Below are positions 4,861 through 44,127 of a stretch of 64,000 nucleotides of DNA, one piece after another. Both the position numbers and the translations under genes were made by a program. The DNA comes from Prorocentrum cordatum (lineage: Eukaryota > Sar > Dinophyceae > Prorocentrales > Prorocentraceae), in NCBI GenBank assembly GCA_963575745.1, contig CAUYUJ010020282.1:280353-344352 (forward strand), read 5' to 3'. Below the pieces are notes generated by a model. That model was given only the letters and a program-made list of their open reading frames with translations. It made no database searches and had not been told where the DNA came from. Positions within the stretch are counted from its first letter, which is position 1, and every line of letters begins with the position of its first letter.

Positions 4861-5591
4861 CTGTAAACTCGTGGAAACCACCCAAACTCCAAATCATAGA
4901 AAAAGCATGGTTGAAACATATGATGCCACTACGTAAAAAAACACGATTCGGCAAACGTGGCCCCATCAATTAAATGATCATGTGTATGAAATATGAGAGC
5001 TCCATGCGTTTCTTATACAGGATGCAGAGTGGTTGTGTTTCGACCCCGGTCCTACGGTCACTAGCGCACACGCGCGCAAAACATGACTCTGAACGCCACT
5101 TGCCAGGAATGGTGCCTCGCCGCTGCTCTAAAATTTAGGGCGGGCTGGGCGTTTCACTTGAGACTTCTTCTGTCGAATCTGTCCCGCCACTTGCCAGGAA
5201 CGTGCAAGACTCGAATTGCGGTGTCATCGAATGGCCACGCATTCTGTTCCTTCGACCCCTTCCTCCCACCTCTTGTAATCCTCCTAGTTCCCGCCTGGGT
5301 TTCGACCCGAACGCAGCGTCCAACAAGCAACCGCACCCTGCCCCCTTGCAGCAGTTCGGGGGGAGAATCACCCAGTTCCGCGTGCGACTGGAAAGTGGAC
5401 GGGTGGGGGGAGCGGCGAGGGAAAGGGAGAGGAGGTGGAGACGAGAGGGAGAGAGGGGAAGGACTGGAGGGAGGGAGGCCCAAGGGAAGGGGAGGAAAGG
5501 GCAAGAACGAAAGCACGAGAACGGGATCCGTAACCAGTCTGGCTCAAAGCCATAGCCGTGTTTTTTTCCCCGGCTGTTTTCGTCTAGGCGA
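4861..5591. other. Unique stretch, purine-rich second half
   Basis: No supported gene. 5400-5500 is a GGGAGAGGAAGG-type purine tract. A 170-codon open frame crosses it but has no recognisable domain and half of it is low complexity, so I do not call it. Confidence 0.5.
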
Positions 5592-35094: not shown

Positions 35095-35228
35095 CCCGAT
35101 CCTCGTCGTCCTTCCTCCCTCCCACCCTCTCCTGTCCTCCTCCTCTCACGCACACTCGTCCTCCTCGTCCTCCTCCTCCTGCTCCTCCTCCTCCTCCTCC
35201 TCCTCCTCCTCCCCCTCCTCCTCCTCCT
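35095..35228 (+). repeat. (TCC)n array, 5' flank of the LINE
   Basis: TCC/CTC triplets with GTC variants and a CCCCC interruption near 35210. It ends at the base before the SL relict. A similar array with the same interruption lies at the other end of the LINE (40769-40853). Confidence 0.95.
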
Positions 35229-35250
35229 TCCGTAGCCATATTGGCTCAAG
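35229..35250 (+). ncRNA. Relict dinoflagellate spliced leader (DinoSL), not an SL gene
   Basis: The 22-base DinoSL consensus is matched except one base: TCCGTAGCCATATTG then GCTCAAG, where the usual leader has T at the twelfth base and this has A. It is followed immediately by ATG (35251) and preceded by (TCC)n. There is no GT donor or Sm-like site right after it, so it is not a working SL RNA gene. In dinoflagellates such relicts mark DNA copied back from trans-spliced mRNA. It stands at the exact 5' end of the LINE. Confidence 0.9.
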
Positions 35251-35552
35251 ATGGCACGCCGTCGCGAGCGCAGCGTGGATACCGCTAGTCCGCGGCCAGT
35301 TCCCACCATTTCGCTGCCACACCCAGAGACGAGCTGCCGTCCACTCCTGCTGATTGTCCTGGCGTTGCAGGCCGCCATACATATCGCTCTGAACCTTGCG
35401 CCGAACATCCACATCCTCGCGCCCCGTGCCGAGTCTCCATACCCTCACATCGAGCTTTGTGCCGGGAATCCATATCGCCCCATCGTGTGCCGCTCCGTGC
35501 CAGTCAACAAAAATCAGACAAGTACGCAGTGGTTTCGTAGTGGACCTGGCCT

Positions 35553-37119: not shown

Positions 37120-37975
37120 CGCCGCCACGGAGCCGACCATTGTCGCCACATGGAACGCGCGAGCACTCATGCGCTACAAGGGCAGGCCCCGCCGTCGCAA
37201 ACAATCTGCCCCCGCTAAGTACATGAGGCGCAAGTGCGTGATCACGCTCCTGGAGGTCCATGGCTCCGAAGCACTGCTCCGCACGTGGGTCGACGCGCAG
37301 CCTCACCCAAGACGAAGTCTATCTCCCGGCGTTCCGCAGCACCGACGGCGACAACTCCACGGGAGGCGCGGCCACGCTTGTTCCGTGGTTCTCGCCGGTG
37401 GAGCTGGAACAGCTCCAGCCGCATCAGACCCCACTCGACCACGTCGAAATCGTTCCTGGGCGCGCCCAGCAGCTCACGAGCACGCGCGCCGTCACGCACG
37501 CCACCACGGTTATCATGAACGTCCACAACCACGACATCGCGGTTGACGACCGCCGCAAAAAAAACAGCAGGCATGGGAGCTCAACCGCACGTGGGCGCAG
37601 GCGAACTACCACGCGCGCGCATTCGTTGCGATCGGCGACTTTCACGTAGCCAGTCGCCCACCACAGAGCTTCGTCCAACCGCGGCCGCAGGGGCCGCGCC
37701 TTGGCCTCGATAGCAGCACGCGCCGGCGGCAGCCGTTCTGGAGAGCCCTGTTTGATTCAATGCTTGGGATCGAGACCGACCTCCCGACGCGCTTCAATCG
37801 CTCGGATTACGCCGCTTCCACCGTCGACCGCATCCTCATCAGCCCCCCCTCGCGCGCCACGACCGAGCTCACCATCGACGCGAAGGTTACACGCGATGCG
37901 ACACTACTTTCGGACGACCGCCTCAGTGACCACGCAGCTGATTCGCGGCGACTGGGTTCGACAGACCACCGGTGA
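37120..37975 (+). pseudogene. LINE AP-like endonuclease domain
   Basis: TIVATWNARAL (N-terminal Asn motif) and LEVHG (catalytic Glu) are in frame 2 at about 37135-37265. GGAATLV and MNVHNHDI follow in frame 0 at 37365-37535. After an eight-A run (37554-37561), FVAIGDFH (catalytic Asp, GD-F-N/H) and the terminal SDH motif (DRLSDHAAD, about 37915-37940) are in frame 2. These are the expected endonuclease/exonuclease/phosphatase-fold motifs in the right order. It would nick target DNA for target-primed reverse transcription. The last Asn of GDFN is His here. Confidence 0.8.
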
Positions 37976-40683
37976 CGCCAACAAAACGGGCCTCATTGCT
38001 GGGGGCGCCCTCGCTGCCCGCTCCATCTCCAGAGCCATTTGGCGCCGAGGTCTTCAACTCGCTCGCCGCGTCGCCGCCGTCGCCGCCCTGGGCGCCAAGT
38101 ACCTCTCGATCGACAATGGCACCATCACGCTCCGCGACCCCATCGCCATCGCCAGCCAGGCCGCGCAGCTGCGCCGCGACTTCGAGGCCAGGCAACTCTC
38201 TCTTACCCAGCAGGCAGCTCGGCGCCCCCAGGGGCAAGAAGGAGCGTTGCCACCAGAGAAGCCACGGTTCATCATGCGGCCCACCCAACGTCGGGCCCTT
38301 CTCTGGGCCCCCTGGAAACGCCGCCTCGTCATCCAAGGAATCAAGATCACAGGCCCTGATGGGCCCCAGACCGCTAGAGAGAGAGCAGCTCCATCGCAGC
38401 TGCTCTACGCACACACCGGCGGCCCATCGGAGGCGGCGCGCGCGGACATTGCCGAGGATACCAACTACATCCACACGCGCATGCCGAAGGGCGACCTCCT
38501 CGACATCGGGGCGCCTGCCAAGCCGCAGATCGAGGCCCCCTCTGCCCCAGGGCCCCACTCTCTGCCGCATGCCGCCTGGCTCGCGCACGACGCCTCGCTC
38601 GACATGCCCGAGGACCTCTCATACTTCCTCTGCTCGGGCCAGTACTACACCCGTGATCTGAATGACTCCGATTTCGCCTGCCCGCCGATGGGCGATACTC
38701 CACGGGGCGAGCTCGCCGCGGACAGGGCGCCCGAGGACACGCGCCCCTTCTCGCTGAAAAAAACACGGACATCAAAGCTATCGCAGGCGCCGCTAACCAC
38801 ACGCCCAAGGGCGCCGTGTCAGAGCACACCCATACCGCCCAGCAGGGCTTCGTCCAGGGGCGCATTTTCACCGGGCACATCGTCCGCTTCGACGCCGAGA
38901 TGCGCCGTGCTGGGCGGCTACCAGGCGCTCTTGCATGCAAACCCACCTTCGCCAGCTTAGACTTCTCAGCGGCCTTCCCGCCCCTGGGGCGGGACTGGCT
39001 CTTCGTCGCGCTCGGGCACGTTGGCCTCCCGCACGGCATCCCGAACCTCTACCAAGCCATGTGCTTCGCGCCCTCCAGCTACATCAAGGTCGACGGCGTG
39101 CGCCACGACATGTTCGCGATAGGCTCTGGAGTGGCGCAGGGCTGCCGCGCGTCGTGCTCTGCTTGGGCGATAGCCACGGATCCGATCACCCGCCACCTCG
39201 CGTCGTTTGAGGGGGGCTCGAACGGCGCGCCGATCCCCGACATTGGCTACCTGGGTGCATGAGCCGACGACATCGGCCTGCGAACGCACTCGCGCGACGC
39301 GCCACGCCAAGTGACCGCCCCGTTTGCCGCTGCGGGGGAGATCGCGCTCCACCCTTTGAAACGCCGCAAATGTTTTCTCGCGCCTCTCTGGCCTGCCGCG
39401 CCCCCCAGCCACCATTGCCGCCGCGCGAGCGCCCCTGGTCGAACTCGGACCCCAATGGTGCGGTTTCTCGGTCGCCGGGCGAGCTAAGTACCTGGGCACT
39501 TCTCTCGGACCCGAGGCCTCATTGGCTTGCCAATGGCTCGCCCCTGGGCAAAAATGGTGGCAGCGGGTTAAGTTGCTTCAGCTCGCGCAGAGCGGCAGCA
39601 ACGCAGCTGTTCGCTTATCCAACAAATCAGCGCTGTCTCCTCTGAGCTCTGTTTCGCAGTTCTTCCCCCTTGAGACTCCATCGCTCGGCGTGAACGGCAT
39701 ATGTTCCACAGGATGATTGGCGCGCCGCCGTGCTCTTTTCGCAAAGTTGACCTGGTCGCCATGGCGGGTTGGCGCCCGCCGCCTGTCCTTCAATCCGCTC
39801 AAATTCTAGTTGCTGCTTCGGCTGCACTTTCTGCGGCAGTCACTCTCGCGGGCGCCCGGGAGCTTTACGCCGATCGCCTCGCTGACCTATCGTGGGAAGA
39901 AACAACGCTACAGAACGCTCCACGCTGGCAGGCTGGTTCATGGTCATCGCCACTCTGGTCTTCTCAGACAGCCATCGCACAGTGCTACCGCTCGCTCATG
40001 CGCCGCGAATCCCAGTCGCCATTCTCTAGCCAGTCCATTGCTACTGCCGCCCGCGCCGCTCACAGTGGGCAGAGAGATGCGGCAGCTACGATCCCGCCCT
40101 GCCGCCCAAGTTCCAACGCATCCATACAGTCAAGCTACGCCACCAGACTTTCAGTTTGCCTTTCGCGGTCACGCTTGTCAAGCGCCTCCTCGTCCAGGGC
40201 CTACAAGCTCCCTTGGAATTTGGAGAACTACAGAAGCGCTGGGAGGCGCTGACCGACGCGCTTCAGCAGATGCGACCGAGCTGGCGCTGGGCTACGTACA
40301 AGACCCTCAGCAGTGGTTGGACTACCACGGCTAGGATGGACATCTTTCAGAAGCGCAAGTGCGCGTTCGGATGCACGGACGCACCTGACTCATTTCCGCT
40401 CTACCTCTCCTGCCCCGCCCTTTCGAATCTCCTCTGGATTCCTGATCCCCCCCTCATCCAAGCAATGCTGACGGCATGGGGGCTGGGCCCTGCCGCAGCG
40501 TGCGCAGCTGTCCCCACCAGCCCTATGTCCTTGCCAGCCACGTTCTCGAGGATCGTACTGGCATTCCATATCTACATTAAAATGAAATCCGCTGCCAGCG
40601 CGCGCACTGCAGCTGTCTCGCAAGCAGACCTGGTCGCATCGCGCCGCGCAGCACTTGCATTACTATACAGGCAGAAGCGCTAG
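37976..40683 (+). pseudogene. LINE reverse transcriptase and C-terminal region
   Basis: Frame 0 holds the linker up to 38756 (EDTRPFSLKK). After a six-A run (38757-38762) frame 2 goes on with RT motifs: AQQGFVQGR, FASLDFSAAFP (motif A), GSGVAQGCRASCSAWA (motif B), then LGA-stop-ADDIGL (motif C, stop at about 39260). Frame 0 at 39480-39640 has the thumb-like SPGELSTWALLSDPR and WLAPGQKWWQRVKLLQ. The end has a Cys motif, KRKCAFGCTDAPDSFPLYLS-CP (40350-40430), as in other dinoflagellate LINEs. It terminates at 40681-40683. Function would be target-primed reverse transcription. This copy is inactive. Confidence 0.85.
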
Positions 40684-40768
40684 GCCAGAGCACTGCGGCA
40701 GAGGCTAACTCATTTGCTTTCTTCTCGTTCGTGCTCGTGTCCGCGTGCCCTCTTCGTTTCTCAGGGTA

Positions 40769-40853
40769 CCCATCTTCCTCCTCCTCCTCCTCCCCCTCCT
40801 CCTCCTCCTCCTCCTTCTCCTCCTCCTCCTCCTCCTCCTCCTCCTCCCCCTCG
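40769..40853 (+). repeat. (TCC)n array, 3' flank of the LINE
   Basis: TCC/CTC triplets with a CCCCC interruption near 40792, the same pattern as just before the SL relict at 35229. It could be a target-site duplication, a simple-repeat LINE tail, or coincidence, since CCCCC interruptions also occur in other TCC arrays here (near 43430). Confidence 0.9.
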
Positions 40854-41835: not shown

Positions 41836-44127
41836 CCTCTCCTCCTACCAGTCTGCGAGTTGGGATGCGCCCAGACTGGTGGGTGTTCCCCATTCGGAGT
41901 TCCGAGCCGTAATCGTGACACATCCGAGGGACTGTTCAAGGGCGGCCCGCCAGTTTTGTCAGTGATCTTTCCCTCTACTCCTCAACCTCAACCTCCTCCC
42001 CCTCCTGCTTTCCACCTCCTCCTCGGTGACCCGGTGATGCGGACGGTGTCGAACGATCGCCCCGATGCTCTCGGCCCCCCCTGGTCGATGGGAGGGGTAA
42101 ACGATAGCAAGAGGTAATCAGAGACAGACATGAATGAACACGGCAATGACAGTGAAGCACCTCGGGAGGAGAGGAGGAGAGGGTGAGGAGTTGGTGGCGC
42201 CTGCCTTGGCCGGCGTTGTGCGAGTGCGGGGGTGGCCCGAGCTTGGTCCCCAGCCCTCCTGGGGGAAGGTGAATTCACAAAACCCATCTCGGCGCGCCTC
42301 TCCTTGACTGGGGGCCCACAACCTGCCACTCCTGCCCGAAGTCCGAGGTGAGGCGAAGACGGATGCAATGCTCCCAGATGCCGCGCGGCAGTCGCGGCGG
42401 AGGGGCTGGTGTGGATGGGGGGCGGGTAAGGCGCTGGAGCGCTGTGGACAGAAGAAGGTGGCGGCAAGGCTTCCACCTCCTCCTCCTCCTCCTCCTCCTC
42501 CTGCTCCTCCTCCTCCTCCTGCTCCTCCTGCTCCTCCTGCTCCTCCTCCTATTCTCGTCCTCCCCTTCCTCGCCCATCTCCGCGGCGATTGGGGCGTGGA
42601 CGGCCGCGGGCTCAGAAGCGGGCGGAGCCTGCCCGCCAGCGGTTCCCGAGGACGGCCGCACGGCGCTCGGCGTATATACACGCCACTCGGCTCGAGGGCT
42701 CCGCGGACCCAGACGTCGGACGTCTCGAGAGGAATCGGAGCGGAGCTGTGTTTCATAGGTTTCGAACTCTCTGGGGCCCTGGAGGGGCCTCGGGACCGTC
42801 AACAAGACAGCTCGGGGTGGAAAGGGCCGTCAACAGAGCAGCTCGGGATAGGTGGGGAAGTGATCGAGAGGTCGGGGGCCGGAGTTTCGAACAACATCGA
42901 GGCGCCGGCTGTCCGGGGACGGGACCAGAGCGGCCTCGGCTTAGCCGAGCCGAGCTGCGGGACGCCCTCCGCCGACCCGACCTCAGACAGCTCCGGCGGC
43001 GAGCCTCACGGGCGGCCCCCGCGCGCGCGCGTTTTGCTCCACGGCCGAGGCGCTGAGATGATGGCCGGCTCGGGCTCCCGCCTCCTCCTCCTCCTCCTCC
43101 TCCTCCTCCTCCTCCTCCTCCTCCACACAGTGCAGCAATGGACGAGTTCAAGCTCGCGATCGGCACAGCCTTTTTGGGTTGTTTGTCAGCGCTCTGGGTG
43201 AGGCGGCGATGTGAGGGCAGGTCTGCCTTCCACGAGCCGTTCTTCCTCGAGCCTCCCCCACCGTGGCCCAGGGCTGGAGCCGCGGCCTGGGGAGCCCCTT
43301 CCCGCTGCCCCTCGGGCGTCGCCGCGGAGGTTGTCTCGCTTTGAGGCGGGAGTCTGGCGGCAAGAGGCCGCCTTGCAACCGCGCCCGCTGCCGGTTTTGG
43401 GGGGCCTCCTCCGCTGCCCTCTCCTCCTCCTCCTCCCCCTCCTTATCCTCCTCCTCGTCGTCGTCCTCCTCCTCCTCCTCCTCCTCCTCACCCCGTGCGT
43501 TCTACTCCGTGCCCGTTCTGGGCTTGCCACCTCGTGGCCCAGGGCCGGCGCCCTGGCCTGAGGAGCCCCGCTCGTGGCCTCTCGTGTCGCTCCTCCGTGC
43601 TTGGGCATCGCTCGCCTGGGCAGCGCTCGGGCGTGTGCATCTGTTTCCCTCGGCGAGGACCACCGCGTCCGAGGAGCAGCTGGACTCACCTGGCGACCCA
43701 GACAGACGCACGGGCTCGCAGAGCGCACGGGGAATGCACGCCCGAGCGAATGGCGAGCTCGTGGCGCTCCTCCAGGGCACCTCGCGGTGGCCGCGCCGCT
43801 GCCGGCGCTCGAGGCGCGGAAAGGCGACGACGGCGAGCCGCGCCGCCGGAGGGCGCCGGCGGCAGCGTTCGGCCGCGCGCTGCGCTCCGCAGGCGCCGGG
43901 GGGGGGCCTCTGGGAGAGTCGCTCGGAGGGCCTCCCTGCGGCGTCGTGTCGGGGGCCTAAGGACGAGGCCAGGACTGTGGGGGACGATCAGTGGAGAGGA
44001 GGCATGTTGCCAAATAATTTCCAGATGTCTAAAACATGTGTTAAGCATGCTTCGAACATGTAAAAAATATGCTTAGGACATTGTTCCGACATTTTAAGCA
44101 CATTTCAAATGCAATGGTTCTCGAGCG
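41836..44127. other. Repeat-rich stretch with TCC arrays, no supported gene
   Basis: (TCC)n arrays lie at 42472-42552, 43080-43128 and 43410-43495. 42765-42860 is repeat E (GGGCCTCGGGACCGTCAACA, AGACAGCTCGGGG) followed by a shortened second copy. 43880-43960 holds GAGAGTCGCTCGGAGGGCCT, also found at about 45410 and, diverged, 45700. Open frames on both strands are repeat-driven. Confidence 0.55.

Follow-up and report, generated by a model that had tools for sequence, protein, structure and literature searches.

With every jump, non-LTR elements have to keep both their promoter and a complete 5′ end. Some of them are target-specific; NeSL and CRE are directed to spliced-leader (SL) exons, and target-specific elements with an AP-type endonuclease also exist. 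In dinoflagellates, genomic SL relicts at the 5′ ends of retrogenes have been attributed to mRNA recycling, that is, trans-splicing followed by reverse transcription (Slamovits and Keeling 2008, as taken up in PMC3229502, PMC7245778, and PMC12014239). Tandem relicts truncated at an internal AG have been described for such retrogenes from cDNA (PMC3229502, PMC12014239). The element mediating the recycling was called unknown in an account that favoured the LTR type Ty1/copia (PMC6050394), and SL relicts were also reported near endogenous viral elements (PMC10235124). Among the non-LTR elements, Togen targets (TG)n and SL exons (PMC4640811), and the trypanosomatid elements L1Tc and ingi carry Pr77 at their 5′ end (PMC8190864).

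Here, we analysed a stretch of 64 kb from Prorocentrum cordatum, called the window in the following. It contains a decayed APE-type LINE whose 5′ end is very probably supplied by the host spliced leader at each jump. As in the DinoSL retrogenes, an SL relict marks the 5′ end, tandem relicts lack the first seven bases of the leader, and the structure is read as the product of trans-splicing and subsequent reverse transcription. The retrogenes derive from host mRNAs moved in trans, whereas here the recycled RNA would be that of the LINE itself, so that the leader regularly takes part in the cycle in nearly every sampled copy. With Togen, NeSL, and CRE, the LINE has in common a preference for simple repeats and a tie to spliced leaders. 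The SL-directed ones among those insert into SL exons, whereas the present element carries the SL and its target is (TCC)n. Its endonuclease is of the AP type, as in LINE-1, while the target-specific clades listed in PMC4640811 carry a restriction-like one. Like L1Tc/ingi, it resides in a host with SL trans-splicing; L1Tc, however, has its own 77-nt promoter/ribozyme and unspliced transcripts (PMC8190864), whereas the LINE described here shows only the host leader as its 5′ UTR. A published LINE with the leader as its 5′ end was not found in the literature searched; most subscription papers lie outside that literature, and an earlier report is possible.

The genome of P. cordatum comprises 4.15 Gb with a G+C content of 59.7% (PMC10666404), and that of the window is 61%. 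The sequence TCCGTAGCCATATTGGCTCAAG at positions 35229–35250 of the forward strand matches the DinoSL (DCCGUAGCCAUUUUGGCUCAAG) at 21 of 22 positions, the sole mismatch being a T-to-A change inside the TTTT run. This is the only match in the window with at most three changes from the 21-base DinoSL core (0/100 shuffles), and even 18 of 22 positions were reached in none of 180 simulated windows (Markov orders 1–3, 60 each). The match lies between a (TCC)n array at 35155–35228 (forward strand, detected by TRF) and the start codon at 35251–35253, which opens the frame MARRRERSVDTASPRPVP.... The preliminary description, which had reported a 22-base DinoSL match with one change between a (TCC)n array and a LINE, directly before an ATG, was thus correct on this point. 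At 35251 the leader continues with ATGG and not with GT, which excludes the intron donor of an SL RNA gene and agrees with a retrogene-type relict. The array represents the 5′ side of the target and presumably acts as a ready polypyrimidine tract in front of the leader. A second, older SL-like sequence (TCCGTAACCAGTCTGGCTCAAA, 18/22, reached in 0/180 simulations) is located at 5527–5548 of the forward strand; together with a broken ORF (MKLFTASFVVVIG...) a few dozen bases further on, it looks like the head of a decayed retrocopy.

The LINE begins with the relict at 35229–35250, which makes up all of its 5′ leader. Degenerate, frameshifted endonuclease (EN) and reverse transcriptase (RT) regions follow on the same strand. 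The AP-type EN region spans 37127–37936, of which 37223–37936 align with the metagenome protein P0001, and is further supported by a read-through alignment. The linker and the RT region occupy 37911–39394, with P0001 aligning to 37935–39160. One RT fragment (38666–39259) matched PF00078 with an E-value of 5e-4, which is below the Pfam cut-off; for one EN fragment, PF03372 reached an E-value of 0.11 only, and in the read-through protein the Pfam search did not find PF03372. The window copy is identified as a LINE mainly because it is 56–60% identical to P0001, which itself contains PF03372 (E 8.9e-7, above the cut-off) and PF00078 (E 1.3e-5, below it). For the linker and RT region, a profile matched LINE-1 ORF2p structures with an E-value of about 1e-5. 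At the sensitivity used, P0001 and P0002 were the only relatives of the LINE in the protein database; searches of the viral and prokaryote-genome collections yielded none, and a search with the N-terminal protein gave no match. The C-terminal ORF fragment at 40030–40683, which ends with a TAG at 40681–40683, includes a Cys/His-like cluster (RKCAFGCTDAPDSFPLYLSC), a putative zinc knuckle. It is followed by a short 3′ UTR (40684–40773) ending in GGGTACCCAT (40764–40773), the 3′ terminus of the family, and by a second (TCC)n array at 40774–40852 (40776–40852 according to TRF) on the 3′ side of the target or its duplication; all these features lie on the forward strand. A match of interruptions between the two TCC arrays was dropped as proof of a duplication, since an array at 43400 shows a similar pattern. 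No second LINE copy was found within the window. A scan of the window, including the LINE copy, yielded no Rfam family at the gathering score and hence no L1Tc-like promoter/ribozyme.

To survey the family, we used a genome assembly of 4.13 Gb in 21,875 contigs. The first 1,000 bases of the LINE as a query gave at least 41 matches, with scores computed for 40 of 686 candidates, and the near-full-length ones among the matches listed were 73–84% identical to the window copy over the first kilobase. Copies were then chosen with a leader-free, LINE-internal 31-mer starting 31 bases after the first base of the leader, which occurred at 80 places with at most three mismatches (control, 0). The upstream sequence was obtained for all 80 (27 from loci of the 1,000-base query and 53 others); they represent ~76 distinct loci, four pairs being identical or near-identical in the flank. 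With a local alignment score of at least 28 of 44 as the threshold, 76 of the 80 copies have a DinoSL relict that ends directly at the start codon. The remaining four retain the last seven (L148) or nine (L166) leader bases or a decayed form (the pair L027/L028). The leader had no mismatch in 18 copies, one in 23, two in 13, three in 14, four in six, five in one, and nine or ten in five. Alignment began at leader base 1 in 58 of the 76 relicts and at bases 2 to 4 in the other 18.

Among 30 copies with ~1.5 kb of upstream sequence, we observed no family-wide 5′ extension. Only 15 of 435 flank pairs had any similarity, namely the duplicated locus L027/L028, a long stretch shared by L016 and L021, and otherwise short repeats at differing offsets. 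The preliminary description had proposed counting the copies that begin with an SL relict, and had named a longer shared region upstream of the leader, or absence of the leader from all other copies, as observations that would speak against its reading. The count gave 76 of the 80 copies, and neither of these observations was made, the upstream region among the 30 long flanks and the leader in the whole set. A pattern search from the opposite end gave 30 3′ ends, of which 16 could be paired with a leader-bearing 5′ end and 14 had no partner among the 5′ ends collected (one of them at a contig start); 5′-truncated or diverged copies therefore exist. Repeated heads also occur: three tandem LINE heads ~920–930 bases apart, each with an SL relict and a pyrimidine tract, are present at G000:C14456:749121-751003, and in a subfamily on contigs C16933, C21543, C13891, and C14637 the 5′ segment (query ~79–728) is repeated ~2.0–2.2 kb downstream of the first.

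Tandem relicts, suggested beforehand as possible marks of repeated cycles, are present in five of the 80 copies (L029, L032, L037, L135, and L170) and in L036 outside this set, and L022 has a partial one. In the six complete cases, the leader is followed by a second unit of 15 nt without the first seven bases and then by the start codon. This length is expected if the AG inside the older leader served as a trans-splice acceptor, and it corresponds to the tandem relicts of DinoSL retrogenes. Thus, the copy survey and the tandem relicts largely support the earlier proposal that the retrotransposed template was a trans-spliced LINE transcript, with the RNA step itself deduced from the scars left in the DNA. 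We also compared the decay of the leader with that of the element, using 21 leader positions and a tree of 28 bodies out of 30 copies (L027/L028 were left out). The leaders had accumulated 34 changes, compared to an expectation of 41.7 from the terminal branches and of 117.4 from the root-to-tip distances. These totals fit a leader that was re-added at the latest jump and not inherited. Per copy, the number of changes was unrelated to the length of the terminal branch (Spearman −0.13, P 0.52); the decay test therefore rests on totals. In addition, a change from CCATTTT to CCGTTTT (leader position 10) recurs in 15 of the 80 leaders. The cause could be a mutation hotspot, A-to-G editing of the RNA before it is reverse-transcribed, or common ancestry, which would argue for an inherited leader in some of the family. 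Part of the decay result could likewise be mimicked by selection acting on the leader in active lineages. The absent correlation and the recurrent variant weaken this result and do not reverse it.

The sequences flanking the copies point to a preferred target. Counting (TCC)n as present when at least 45% of the triplets in the 45 upstream bases are TCC rotations, we found it directly upstream of 61 of the 80 copies, compared to 1.0% of 127,622 window positions. (GGA)n, with a background of 1.0% as well, preceded none of the 80, and the upstream sequence was at least 80% pyrimidine in 68. The LINE is thus associated with one simple repeat in one orientation, in the manner of microsatellite-targeted LINEs. 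Nineteen copies were below the TCC threshold, and L040, L135, L148, and L173 have no array; arrays are therefore favoured, not required. No further SL exon was seen in the 5′ flanks. The order of SL and then LINE frame, flanked by (TCC)n or unrelated DNA, differs from that of SL-exon-targeted elements such as NeSL and CRE. On the 3′ side, (TCC)n as defined by this threshold follows 16 of 20 further ends, and in 15 of the 20 the terminus is followed by A or G and then CTCC. Fifteen of the fetched regions extend to the 3′ end; 12 of them continue directly into CTCCTCC-like sequence, two weakly, and one does not.

In 14 pairs, matched 5′ and 3′ flanks resembled each other more closely than permuted flanks did (0/20,000 permutations, P 5e-5). 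The 14 pairs came from 20 fetched 3′ regions after removal of four without a 3′ match, one with an internal match only, and L109 (L020), which ended early; L019 and L026, whose 3′ ends were mis-called by a short anchor (scores 1 and 0), and L017 (score 3) were kept. In four pairs (L014, L018, L029, and L030) the duplication measures exactly 17 nt with one change, and in the flank pair of L017 no duplication was seen. The insertion L165/L187 lies outside an array and has TACGGGTGGGTG on both sides. Because the 17-nt duplications end at the first base of the leader (for L165, no more than one or two bases from it), the leader is the 5′ terminus of the element. Target-site duplications of ~17 nt together with the constant 3′ terminus GGGTACCCAT are in line with an APE-type LINE.

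A small hairpin (CCGC-TAGTCC-GCGG, 35282–35295, forward strand) is located behind the leader and lies ~25–45 bases after it in LINE-like heads. We evaluated it in 14 genomic heads and the window, the structure having been proposed from these same 15 sequences, which were picked by similarity (L052 has a shorter loop). Pairing was maintained in 98.3% of 60 cells, compensatory double changes occurred at all four pairs, and the covariation score was reached by 0/500 shuffles; further pair types did not exceed the shuffles (282/500). The segment is read in different frames, as DTASPR in L004, L010, and the window and as RRPLVQ in L008, which speaks for a structure in the RNA and less for a constraint on the protein.

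The leader also precedes other families. A genome-wide search with the 19-base leader core at up to three mismatches gave 26,707 + 26,867 sites, compared to 203 + 181 for the reversed pattern, i.e., ~53,000 SL-like sites. From at least 100 exact leader sites, we examined 68 in listing order (8 + 60). Upstream of these were (TCC)n in 29, (GGA)n in 10, other simple repeats in three, and none at the threshold in 26. The LINE-head motif scored above every shuffle in nine of the 68, eight of which are TCC-preceded. Six further LINE-like heads were recognised by eye (L008, L050, L052, L069, L100, and L101; motif scores no higher than shuffles), whereas L058 and L085 (motif score 16) were not taken as such. 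In total, 13 of 15 LINE-like heads are TCC-preceded, compared to 16 of 53 others. By eye, the frame MARRRERSVDTASPRPVP... of the window resembles MMVPAASFMDTASPRLVP... of the L010 family. Five heads were followed for ~5.7–6.5 kb from the leader. In four of them (L008, L010, L064, and L080) tblastn detected EN/RT relatives 1.3–4.5 kb downstream of the leader; over this distance, none of the LINE queries matched L004. In the whole L008 copy, L180, a frame of 1,864 codons is open from the ATG right after the leader, and the leader would therefore make up the full 5′ leader sequence of the mRNA. This single frame contains an AP-like endonuclease (PF03372, E 1.4e-8) and a reverse transcriptase (PF00078, E 1.2e-15), both above the cut-off, and thus qualifies L180 as an APE-type LINE. 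Among solved chains, its RT region matched R2 best (E 6e-14), with LINE-1 ORF2p at 1.5e-13. Unlike LINE-1 and R2, L180 consists of one long frame directly after the leader, with no recognisable promoter-bearing 5′ UTR.

Ten of the 53 non-LINE-like relicts follow (GGA)n, the reverse orientation (L006, L044, L048, L049, L051, L053, L073, L084, L085, and L092), compared to 0/80 LINE copies (Fisher P 6e-5). Recurrent groups sharing sequence after the SL by eye (L009/L051/L054/L088/L091, L045/L066/L078/L098, L053/L055/L067, and L047/L056/L096) are possibly non-autonomous SL-headed retroposons, and L056 and L079 look like triple relicts. Leaders were also encountered in other collections. The AT-rich viral contig L001 (IMGVR_UViG_3300045993_001077) has DinoSL sequences at 2746–2766 and 2893–2913 of the reverse strand, one of them just upstream of a GC-richer ORF of 254 aa without a Pfam match, which suggests either a chimeric contig or a large DNA virus that contains cDNA derived from a trans-spliced mRNA of a dinoflagellate. 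Two contigs are labelled Dehalococcoidia. In L002 (CAJXDJ010000191.1, positions 1–60), a (TCA)n array and then a perfect SL are located at the contig edge, in the array-then-leader layout of the LINE copies; it is probably dinoflagellate contamination. In L003 (JAKUNN010000063.1, 4334–4354, reverse strand), the SL is followed by GTACG, as in an SL RNA gene, a few hundred bases before an apparent 18S rRNA start recognised by eye.

Several other explanations for the leader have to be weighed. With ~0.8 SL-like sites per 64 kb, a truncated LINE might lie beside an unrelated retrogene relict by chance; the copy survey, in which 76 of 80 copies share the position of the relict to the base and the other four have its 3′ end or a decayed form, refutes this and leaves it a negligible probability. 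It is quite unlikely that the leader was captured once and has since been copied along as an inherited part of the LINE, kept by selection. A single relict at the same place in most copies, decay uncorrelated with terminal branch length, and the CCG variant shared by 15 leaders all speak for inheritance, but a tandem relict cut at the internal AG calls for a newly added leader, the totals of leader changes match the age of the last jump and not that of the family, and 18 leaders are perfect (22/22) in a family whose listed near-full-length matches have 73–84% first-kilobase identity to the window copy. The relict could instead act as a promoter from which transcription starts without new splicing, an idea put forward for retrogenes around a TTT(G) motif (PMC6050394) and consistent with the small number of tandem copies. 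We consider it very unlikely here: a start inside the leader would lose the first bases, yet most relicts align from base 1; tandem relicts require splicing; and the pyrimidine tract upstream would be left unexplained.

A further alternative concerns the arrays, which might be the element's own microsatellite head and tail and not its target. They are present at both ends in most copies, and pure arrays of either origin are indistinguishable; the short CTCC at the 3′ junction may indeed be templated by the element. Against element-owned arrays, the upstream length varies down to none (L135, L040), the duplications agree more closely across one element than from copy to copy, and the DNA duplicated at L165/L187 is not part of an array. 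We therefore regard this explanation as rather doubtful and retain (TCC)n as the target.

For a leader renewed at each jump, the DNA structure described above is directly observed, and from it we infer transcription, acceptor choice, and nicking as follows. A copy in a (TCC)n array would be transcribed by read-through, because the 22-nt leader is all the 5′ UTR it possesses. In the transcript, the (TCC)n tract and an AG of the old leader would constitute a trans-splice acceptor, and a fresh capped DinoSL would be joined in front of the start codon, as judged from the DNA scars. Use of the last AG (CTCAAG^ATG) would keep a single leader, while use of the inner AG (CCGTAG^CCATT) would add one and give rise to the tandem relicts, which themselves are observed. 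The LINE protein would then carry the RNA back to the DNA, where the endonuclease would nick the GAGGAG strand of a CTCCTC target and the nick would prime reverse transcription up to the cap, as the junctions and the ~17-nt duplications indicate. The new copy would again lie behind a polypyrimidine tract, so that landing site and passenger leader together would recreate the acceptor.

The SL-headed LINE suggests how such elements rebuild their front end at each jump. In a broader reading, to which we give slightly better than even chances, a LINE clade has handed over the need for a cap, a 5′ UTR, and a promoter to host trans-splicing and targets (TCC)n so that the leader regains an acceptor and the 5′ end renews itself; by acting in trans on further SL-headed RNAs, this machinery would have produced many of the SL relicts and retrogenes that dinoflagellate genomes contain by the tens of thousands. 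As the retroelement that mediates mRNA recycling in dinoflagellates, the LINE is a concrete candidate, because the 16 of 53 non-LINE-like relicts mentioned above also lie directly behind (TCC)n, against a background of 1%. Retrogene counts based on SL relicts also include LINE heads (9/68 by motif and six more by eye). If our reading is true, the host-added leader would represent a new solution to the upkeep of the 5′ end in non-LTR elements.
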